Of a DNA stretch of 64,000 bases, positions 7,338 to 38,446 are shown piece by piece. Source of the DNA: an uncultured Cohaesibacter sp. (lineage in GTDB: Bacteria > Pseudomonadota > Alphaproteobacteria > Rhizobiales > Cohaesibacteraceae). Made by a program: the position numbers and the translations under genes. The notes beneath the pieces were generated by a model. The model made no database searches, was not told the origin of the DNA, and saw only the letters and a program-made list of their open reading frames with translations. How positions within the stretch are numbered: the first letter of the stretch is position 1; each line of letters begins with the position of its first letter. The stretch covers positions 2,554,501-2,618,500 of the forward strand of contig NZ_OY821667.1 in assembly GCF_963682185.1 (NCBI RefSeq), written 5' to 3'.

Positions 7338-8369
7338 TTAGCCCCTATAGGAACGCACGCGCTGAATCAGTCGATGAACCAGATCGATATTGCCTTGCGG
7401 GGAGATACCATGACCCAGATTGAAAATAAAAGATCCATTGCTCCAGGACGCCATGATCCGGTCAATGGATTCATCCAGATGTCGTTCGTCAGACATCAAC
7501 AAGGTCGGATCCAGATTGCCCTGCAAAGCTACCTTCGGCTGCAAGACATCCCGCGCCCAGTCCAGTGGTACGGTCCAGTCCAACCCGATGGCATTTACGC
7601 CTGTGGCCTCAACAAAATCGACGAGCCGCACACCCGCCCCTTTTGGAAAACCGATAATCTTTGCGTCCGGAATTTGAGCGCGGACACCTGCCACGATTCT
7701 GGCGATGGGATCACGAGAAGCCGAAAGATAGAGCGCATCATCCAGCACACCTGCCCAGCTATCAAAAATCTGCACCGCATCGGCGCCTGATTGCAGCTGT
7801 TTGACCAGATAAAGAATAGACGCTTCGACCAGCACATCGATCAGGGCATGAAAAGCCTCTGGATGCTTGCGTGCAAACAAACGGGCGGGCGCCTGATCCG
7901 GCGTGCCATGCCCTGCGATCATATAGGTGGCAACGGTCCAGGGAGCACCACAAAATCCAAGAAAGGTGGTTTCCCCCGGTAGCCCTTCCCGAATCTTTCC
8001 AATTGCTTCGAAAACCGGTTTAAGATTCTCCAGAACGATCGAAGGATCAAGATCCTTGATTTCTTCAGGAGAGATCGGATCGAGCTGCGGTCCTTCCCCT
8101 TGAACAAACCTTACCGAACGCCCAAGTGCATCAGGAATCACGAGAATATCGGAAAACAGGATCGCTGCATCAAAGCCAAATCGACGAATGGGCTGAAGAG
8201 TTACTTCGCAAGCCAAATCAGGATTGTAGCAAAGGGAGAGAAAGCTTCCTGCCTCTGCCCTGGTGGCACGATATTCAGGAAGATACCTTCCCGCTTGCCT
8301 CATCAACCAGATCGGAGGAACTTTCTCAGTCTGGCCATTGAGCACGTTCATCAAGCGTCGATTGTTCAC
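7338..8369 (-). CDS. hemE: Uroporphyrinogen decarboxylase HemE
   Basis: A 343-residue protein with the HemE signature WLMRQAGRYLPEYR near residues 21-34 and a second block GFCGAPWTVATYM. It decarboxylates uroporphyrinogen III to coproporphyrinogen III in the cytosol. The start is a GTG at 8369 (MNNRRLMNVL) with GGAGA eight bases upstream; an ATG six codons later is possible. It is the last leftward gene before the proposed replication origin, an arrangement known from Caulobacter and Sinorhizobium. Confidence 0.97.
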   Translation of the reverse strand: MNNRRLMNVLNGQTEKVPPIWLMRQAGRYLPEYRATRAEAGSFLSLCYNPDLACEVTLQPIRRFGFDAAILFSDILVIPDALGRSVRFVQGEGPQLDPISPEEIKDLDPSIVLENLKPVFEAIGKIREGLPGETTFLGFCGAPWTVATYMIAGHGTPDQAPARLFARKHPEAFHALIDVLVEASILYLVKQLQSGADAVQIFDSWAGVLDDALYLSASRDPIARIVAGVRAQIPDAKIIGFPKGAGVRLVDFVEATGVNAIGLDWTVPLDWARDVLQPKVALQGNLDPTLLMSDERHLDESIDRIMASWSNGSFIFNLGHGISPQGNIDLVHRLIQRVRSYRG

Positions 8370-8581
8370 GAATTTTGTCTCCCCGTTTGCAGTCCGAATT
8401 GAGCACGATTCCCAACAAACTTCCTAATAAAATATTTAAGTTTTAGATTCTGTTTCTTCTTTTAGACCGTGGATTGTGGGAGTTATTTTTGGCCCACATA
8501 TTGCCCACAATGACTCTTGAACAACTGTGATTCAACAGTCGTTACCTTCTAGTAACTTTTAGGGACCAATGGGGACAAGTC

Positions 8582-8590
8582 TTATCGACA
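8582..8590 (+). promoter_or_regulatory. DnaA box candidate
   Basis: TTATCGACA differs from the strong DnaA box TTATCCACA by one base and lies in the hemE-maf gap. Confidence 0.6.
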
Positions 8591-8673
8591 GGCAGATTTC
8601 TGCGGAGTCTTCTGTGGCCAAATCTGGGGGTTATCTGGAGACAGAAATTGAGCAAAGTTTAACAAAGTGTGTA

Positions 8674-8688
8674 TTAACTGTTTGTTAA
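8674..8688. promoter_or_regulatory. CtrA box 1 in oriC
   Basis: TTAA CTGTTTG TTAA, an exact TTAA-N7-TTAA motif followed by C, the consensus for the cell-cycle regulator CtrA. Confidence 0.7.
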
Positions 8689-8741
8689 CTTCAGTAAACA
8701 GAGTGTTAATAAAACAGGCGTTGCTCAACTCAGCTTGGGGA

Positions 8742-8756
8742 TTAATAAATGGTTAA
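8742..8756. promoter_or_regulatory. CtrA box 2 in oriC
   Basis: TTAA TAAATGG TTAA followed by C: a second exact TTAA-N7-TTAA, 68 bp from the first. Confidence 0.7.
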
Positions 8757-8846
8757 CGGGCATGAAAAGCCAAGCTCGGGAAAAACGGCTTGATTATCCC
8801 CTGTTGCCCACACCCCCTGTTGAAGAATCGATTGTTGAAGCCGGTC

Positions 8847-8861
8847 TTAACCCTCTATTAA
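8847..8861. promoter_or_regulatory. CtrA box 3 in oriC
   Basis: TTAA CCCTCTA TTAA: a third exact TTAA-N7-TTAA, 105 bp from the second. It has A G rather than C after the second half-site on the plus strand. Confidence 0.65.
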
Positions 8862-9007
8862 GACAGTCTCATGACGGAAATTGCTGTTTTCCGGCCTTTT
8901 CAGCCTGTGTAAATCGTGACAGAGGGGAAAGATCCACAACAGCCGTTTTGTTTGACGCCTGCTTGCTCTAAAACTCGGATCATCTTCTCAACGGTTGGAC
9001 CTTTTTC

Positions 9008-9604
9008 ATGATTCCATTGATTCTAGCTTCCAAAAGTCAGGCTCGGGCACAGCTCTTGTCCAATGCCGGCCTTTCATTTGAGACATCGGTTGCGCAAATT
9101 GATGAGCGCGCCGCCGAACAGCCTCTATTGGCAGCAGGGGCTTCTCCTGCCGATATAGCAACCCTGCTTGCTCAGGTGAAAGCGACCGAGGTGTCCGTTC
9201 GCAATCCCGGTGCGCTGGTCATCGGAGCCGATCAGACATTGGGCTTTGGGGATAAACGCTTCAACAAACCAGAAGATGACGCTGCCGCGCGCCGCCAACT
9301 GCTGGAATTGGCCGGTCAGAGCCATCAGCTGAACTCAGCTGTGTCTTGTGCAAAAGATGGGGAAATCCTCTGGAGCCATGTTTCGACAGCCACCCTCACC
9401 ATGCGGCCATTGAGCCCGGAAGAGATCGGGCGCTATATGGCGCGCGTTGGCGATCAGGTGCGCTCCAGTGTCGGCTGTTACCAGTTGGAAGGGCTTGGCG
9501 TGCAATTGTTTGAAAAGATTGATGGCGACTATTTCACCATCCTCGGATTGCCCCTCCTCCCATTGCTCGGCTATTTGCGTGACCATCAGGGACTGGATTT
9601 CTAA
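9008..9604 (+). CDS. maf: Maf-like nucleotide pyrophosphatase
   Basis: A 198-residue Maf/HAM1-fold protein. The N-terminal [12 protein letters not shown] is a variant of the usual LAS-S-RR-LL loop, and GADQTL stands in the GAD motif. The family hydrolyses non-canonical or modified nucleoside triphosphates to monophosphates. It is the first rightward gene after oriC and the head of maf-aroE-coaE-dnaQ, an order conserved across alphaproteobacteria. It ends 2 bp before aroE, so translation is probably coupled. Confidence 0.9.
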
Positions 9605-38009: not shown

Positions 38010-38446
38010 GCGCAAATCCAGCATCTTTGAATGCATTTGCGACGTTTTTTGAAATTGGCACCCCTCATATAAGAGTGAAGCGAGAAAATAAAGAGGGTCA
38101 GGCAGGTTAAGGGCAGGTTAAAGCAAAAAATTCCCCACATCTGTGAAGGTTATTCAGAAAAGCGCGTCCAATCGGAGCAATGGGATGAATTCGGCGCCCA
38201 TTCTGCCTTGGCGGCTATTGAGATAGGCTGGAAGGAAGCAACATTTATCCCGATTTCTGGCATGGGCAAAAAATGGCCACGCGCATATGATATGTGGTGC
38301 ATTGGATAATTCAGCTGAGGGATGGTCCCGGTCTGTCATATGGATGCATGCATAGGGCGAATCACGGCAAACAGAACCTCCCCGCTGGCTTATGGGTTCG
38401 CAGATTGAAAAAGCTGATCGTAAAAAGGAAAGGAGCGCACCAAACC
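38010..38446. other. Gap upstream of alkB
   Basis: Between the dnaK promoter and alkB. No CIRCE element or other recognisable structure is seen. An in-frame upstream extension of alkB is open from 38294 but lacks family resemblance. Confidence 0.5.

Follow-up and report, generated by a model that had tools for sequence, protein, structure and literature searches.

CtrA-type boxes in the putative chromosomal origin of a Cohaesibacter genome and in other Hyphomicrobiales

The gap between hemE and maf

The window, by which we mean the whole 64-kb stretch of DNA analysed here, contains a 638-bp intergenic gap (8370–9007) bordered on its left by hemE on the minus strand (7338–8369; PF01208, E = 3.5e-112) and on its right by maf on the plus strand (9008–9604; PF02545, E = 2.4e-44). 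The window belongs to a Cohaesibacter chromosome (Hyphomicrobiales): the encoded HemE shares 90% identity with its Cohaesibacter haloalkalitolerans counterpart and 82–84% with those of three other Cohaesibacter records, and the window's genome is grouped in one genus with what appear to be the genomes of these four. At 43% GC, the AT content of the gap exceeds that of most of the window. The sign of the GC skew flips within it, as it also does between the sampled arms of the chromosome: stretches sampled from 0–2.5 Mb have negative values (−0.05 to −0.11) and those from 2.5–4.0 Mb weakly positive ones (0.00 to 0.03), the skew to the right of the gap being weak as well, with an average of +0.012 over the rest of the window. 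The origins of Caulobacter and Rickettsia are also reported to lie beside hemE (PMC1914354). Given the match to the hemE-side location of known origins and the change in skew, we regard the hemE/maf gap as very probably oriC.

That the gap is bordered by maf follows from the lack of ppsR (COG1806). Searching the 20 Cohaesibacteraceae genomes (loci L096–L115) for PF03618, we observed no ppsR match genome-wide in 11 of them, the window's own included, while each of the remaining nine contains a single match, located across the origin gap from hemE.

Composition and short motifs vary along the gap. The highest AT content is found nearer hemE, away from the boxes described below (0.70–0.74 in 50-bp windows starting at 8400–8430); the stretch that carries boxes 1 and 1b (8640–8729) is also AT-rich, at 0.64–0.72 in 50-bp windows starting at 8640–8680. 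A block at 8465–8481, GACCGTGGATTGTGGGA, has a mean identity of 0.90 among 18 Cohaesibacter genomes and may be read as a weak DnaA site. The W-box-like hexamer TCCCCA occurs on the minus strand at 8570–8575, within the conserved block TGGGGACAAGTCT, and again on the minus strand at 8736–8741, immediately abutting box 2. The canonical DnaA box, TTATCCACA, has no match in the 638 bp, where we found weak DnaA-like matches only, and a one-mismatch match at 8582 is not conserved. Likewise, no exact IHF site is present in the gap, the matches being limited to ones with a single mismatch, some of which overlap box 1. Six GANTC (CcrM-type) sites are distributed between 8407 and 8829.

CtrA-type boxes and their conservation in Cohaesibacteraceae

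A sequence-only reading of this DNA had reported three exact copies of the CtrA motif TTAA-N7-TTAA within the putative oriC, and we confirm all three: box 1 (TTAACTGTTTGTTAA, 8674–8688), box 2 (TTAATAAATGGTTAA, 8742–8756) and box 3 (TTAACCCTCTATTAA, 8847–8861). Their number is far above chance. In 5000 dinucleotide shuffles of the gap the mean was 0.030 boxes, with two or more in 4 shuffles and three in none, and for the entire 64-kb window 100 such shuffles gave an expectation of 0.30 exact boxes (sd 0.56, largest 3). A fourth exact copy is present in the window at 38107–38121. The same reading had named a high genome-wide frequency of the motif as an observation that would speak against it; the frequency is in fact low, with 57 exact copies in the 5,391,032 bases of the chromosome, or roughly one in 95 kb. 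On the same chromosome we counted 108 copies of the reversed control, AATT-N7-AATT. Having checked all 57 sites, we found the origin gap to be the only place where three lie within 200 bp, pairs being present elsewhere. An equally tight triple arose in 0.56% of 20,000 simulations in which 57 sites were distributed over an assumed 12% of the genome.

From an alignment of the 20 Cohaesibacteraceae genomes, which include the window's own and 18 from the genus Cohaesibacter, we found that the gap carries one or more exact boxes in 19, with a total of 37 boxes versus a shuffle mean of 0.8. The individual boxes differ in their conservation. Box 1 is retained throughout, being exact in 15 of the 20 genomes and carrying one mismatch in the other five, and the expectation of conservation in relatives thus holds for this box; boxes 2 and 3 do not share it, as they are exact only in the closest nine and six genomes, respectively, box 3 with four different spacers. 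Nor are the three exact boxes the conserved unit. The unit consists instead of box 1 and an overlooked copy with one mismatch that follows it by 21 bp, which we call box 1b (TAAACAGAGTGTTAA, 8695–8709) and which is found with at most one mismatch in 18 of the 20 genomes, in three of them exactly. When 624 overlapping 15-bp windows were scored for the agreement of the 18 genus genomes with the window's own base, none scored higher than box 1b and only four scored higher than box 1, versus 215 for box 2 and 395 for box 3; because several of the 18 genomes are closely related, this ranking is descriptive and does not constitute an independent test. A further imperfect box with one mismatch (8648–8662) is weakly conserved, at rank 305 of the 624. 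The spacers of boxes 1 and 3 vary among species, and the TTAA halves are mostly kept, which speaks for selection on the half-sites. As judged from this alignment, the conserved core is boxes 1 and 1b, and boxes 2 and 3 are restricted to a subclade.

The motif elsewhere in the genome and across Hyphomicrobiales

The genome encodes a protein that is 81% identical over 227 residues to a Caulobacter CtrA. A CtrA match at E ≤ 1e-60 is present in 18 of the 20 Cohaesibacteraceae genomes; at this threshold none was found in G008 and G019, which are 90% and 87% complete. In the 600 bp upstream of ctrA (L233) there is no TTAA-N7-TTAA at one mismatch or fewer, and we observed there TTAACCAT and four GANTC sites within about 340 bp.

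For the regulon we considered 43 of the 57 exact sites, all outside the origin. Of these, 41 lie outside open reading frames of at least 150 residues, versus 11 of 15 sites of the AATT-N7-AATT control, and 13 either cover the start of a Pfam-supported gene of flagellar, pilus or chemotaxis type or precede such a gene by no more than 450 bp; the corresponding count for the control is 0 of 15, judged by eye rather than by a Pfam scan. The genes concerned encode FliE (whose start the site covers), FlgI (with FliX on the other side), flagellin, FlgE, FliF (two sites), a second flagellin (two sites), a TadE/G-like protein, RcpC/CpaB, a CheB-CheR hybrid kinase, an MCP and a HAMP sensor, the gene for the last being cut by the end of the stretch. 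A FlgB-like protein was recognised by eye and has no Pfam match. Other sites precede genes for an RpoD region 1.1 protein, a sigma-54 response regulator and a MotA/TolQ/ExbB protein; the CtrA of Brucella abortus is reported to bind its rpoD promoter (PMC2877005). These observations support the view that in this genome TTAA-N7-TTAA is a mark of genes of flagellar, pilus and chemotaxis type, as would be expected of CtrA sites. In two places, before a fliF and before a flagellin gene, exact boxes are paired at distances of 23 and 20 bp (G000:C1:1634442-1634479 and 3305275-3305309) and resemble the 21-bp pair of the origin.

HemE was found in 195 of 199 genomes of the order, 187 of which are outside Cohaesibacteraceae. 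Our order sample comprises 102 of these 187, with entries skipped to spread the families, and it leans to higher HemE similarity because it was chosen among the matches listed. In 96 of the 102 genomes ppsR or maf adjoins hemE, which made them usable. An exact box is present in the gap of 39 of the 96, giving 44 boxes where 100 shuffles gave a mean of 1.1 and a maximum of 5, and no exact box occurs in the 43,200 bases of the next gene in this sample. The genomes that contain a box belong to 16 of the 36 other families; drawing one genome per family, we obtained a box in 7–15 of 36 (mean 11.2). Exact matching undercounts imperfect boxes here and in all our other comparison sets. A 21-bp pair as a general feature outside Cohaesibacteraceae was rejected, as a pair with this spacing is present in three order genomes and one with 11-bp spacing in three as well. 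Outside the order, we took 67 of the 156 class genomes with HemE, of which 60 were usable, and found an exact box in five (50 shuffles: mean 0.58, max 2); this excess is small, and we therefore do not extend the wide spread to the class. The seven unusable genomes have no box in the 400 bp upstream of hemE.

A candidate CtrA-controlled origin and its relation to known systems

We consider it probable that the hemE/maf gap serves as the origin of the chromosome and is bound directly by CtrA, which would repress initiation there as it does in Caulobacter. Phosphorylated CtrA would occupy box 1 (starting at 8674) and box 1b (starting at 8695), which are separated by two helical turns and lie in AT-rich sequence of the origin, and the lineage-specific boxes 2 and 3 may reinforce this occupancy. 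Located beside weak DnaA-like sites, CtrA could then block the opening of the origin by DnaA up to the point of its own dephosphorylation or degradation, and initiation of replication would thereby be tied to the cell cycle, again as in Caulobacter. Since the 21-bp spacing is not general, the helical-phase idea draws only on the genus. The presence of the boxes, their excess over chance, their conservation and spacing specificity, the CtrA gene and the CtrA-like regulon are all results read from sequence, and it is from these that we infer CtrA binding, the exclusion of DnaA, repression and its timing. For Caulobacter, the simplest mechanism put forward is that CtrA sterically excludes DnaA, whose low-affinity sites lie near those of CtrA (PMC4468827). 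Comparable elements are seen in the window, where the boxes occupy AT-rich sequence and are accompanied by weak DnaA-like matches and by TCCCCA hexamers, one of them adjoining box 2.

Several observations count against CtrA control. Weakening all five CtrA sites of the Caulobacter origin is reported to have perturbed replication only mildly in laboratory culture (PMC4468827), and Ori-Finder reports two CtrA-type sites in the origin of Yersinia pestis, in which CtrA is absent (PMC10225481). To these must be added the reports on Sinorhizobium meliloti and B. abortus discussed below, the lack of a canonical DnaA box or exact IHF site in the gap, the position of the AT peak near hemE, the restriction of boxes 2 and 3 to a subclade, and the two family genomes that gave no CtrA match.

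The boxes might instead be CtrA sites for transcription of a neighbour (hemE, maf or, in relatives, ppsR), their location in an origin being incidental. We regard this as unlikely, although it is the most probable of the alternatives. In its favour, boxes are found at gene starts elsewhere in this genome, and a few genomes from other families have a box at only 19–103 bp from the next gene. Moreover, five of the six genomes of family f26 (L140, L146, L166, L175, L177) have an exact box that begins 51–63 bp from hemE and looks more like a hemE promoter site. The boxes of the window, however, are located 304–477 bp from hemE and 146–319 bp from maf, and the window's clade, which is without ppsR, has nevertheless retained boxes 1 and 1b. 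Across the order sample, 30 of the 96 genomes have a box at least 120 bp from hemE and at least 100 bp from the next gene, and thus away from both.

Less probable still is that the boxes are bound by another TTAA-preferring factor, such as IHF or a MucR-like protein, or reflect a structural need of an AT-rich unwinding region, as could be suggested by the AT-rich surroundings of boxes 1 and 1b and by the IHF-like one-mismatch matches that overlap box 1. Against this stands the specificity of the spacing: in the 96 order gaps a spacer of N7 gives 44 boxes, whereas each of N2–N6 and N8–N15 gives four or fewer, and AATT-N7-AATT occurs twice. The presence of the same motif at flagellar and pilus genes in this genome also argues for CtrA rather than for such a factor. 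A chance cluster, which the composition of the gap and the restriction of box 3 to six of 20 genomes might bring to mind, appears very improbable to us, since three boxes arose in no shuffle of the gap and the conservation of boxes 1 and 1b extends across the genus.

The predicted CtrA-controlled origin of Cohaesibacter is like Cori of Caulobacter crescentus in being a gap beside hemE with several TTAA-N7-TTAA boxes and weak DnaA-like matches near them; Cori is reported to contain five CtrA sites (PMC1914354) together with G-boxes and W-boxes (PMC4468827). It differs in being bordered by maf, with ppsR missing, and in having a 21-bp-spaced pair as its core. It is also like the hemE-bordered origins of Rickettsia and Wolbachia, for which CtrA boxes have been predicted, although these belong to other orders and their box numbers range from none to seven (PMC1914354), and like that of Hyphomonas neptunium, where a CtrA ChIP-seq site lies beside the origin (PMC7200025). 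Unlike Cori and the Hyphomonas site, the one described here is predicted from its sequence. H. neptunium is counted with the Caulobacterales and not with the Hyphomicrobiales (PMC8116508).

S. meliloti and B. abortus belong to the same order as the window (Rhizobiales, equivalent to Hyphomicrobiales) and differ from it in this respect. The origin of S. meliloti is reported to be without a CtrA motif and not bound (PMC4433202), and any effect of CtrA on replication in that species is described as indirect, with the pathway unknown (PMC4433202); CtrA of B. abortus is reported not to bind its origin (PMC2877005). The sequence-only reading held that direct CtrA control of origins is not the rule in Hyphomicrobiales; the statement agrees with the reports on these two model species, but the box is common in our sample of the order. 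According to a 2015 review, CtrA sites in origins had not been seen beyond Caulobacter and possibly Rickettsia, a statement already qualified by the predictions for Wolbachia and its relatives (PMC1914354) and by the Hyphomonas ChIP data (PMC7200025). The available portions of PMC8116508 and PMC6473078 contain nothing on CtrA sites in Hyphomicrobiales origins, and we found no literature report of CtrA boxes in an origin of this order in a search of mostly openly available papers, so that an earlier report may exist. The CtrA-type boxes of this origin are real and conserved and, as far as could be seen, new for Hyphomicrobiales.

We hypothesize that many Hyphomicrobiales have their chromosomal origin under direct CtrA control, in Cohaesibacteraceae and in the 16 of 36 other families with a box, and that the models Sinorhizobium and Brucella represent lineages without it; we hold the arguments for and against this to be evenly balanced. 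Either loss in Sinorhizobium and Brucella or gain elsewhere is possible, and other orders rarely show the box (5 of 60). If the hypothesis is true, origin control by CtrA would extend to Hyphomicrobiales, its patchy distribution would become a testable evolutionary question, and the order would in either case provide numerous natural examples of an origin checkpoint gained or lost. Of more interest, in our opinion, is the wider, sequence-based claim that origins of Hyphomicrobiales often carry such predicted boxes and that those of its models lack them.

Among 76 named loci, most of them assigned by their titles to Rhizobiaceae in a broad sense and overlapping the order sample by at least one genome (L061/G198), 73 were usable, of which seven contain an exact box (eight boxes, shuffle mean 0.9). 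We found no clear trace of degraded boxes in these loci, where one-mismatch copies number 25 versus a mean of 15.6 and a maximum of 26 in 10 shuffles. Neither ppsR nor maf was found beside hemE in the Nitrobacter and Afipia loci (L064, L065) or in five of six examined members of family f33, which have large genomes (L128, L132, L133, L141, L142), and the borders of the origin may therefore differ in these lineages. A record titled Bacillus subtilis SK6B4 (L053, JAHREI010000001.1) contains a hemE 59% identical to that of the window, with ppsR adjoining it as in Hyphomicrobiales, and is probably mislabelled or contaminated.
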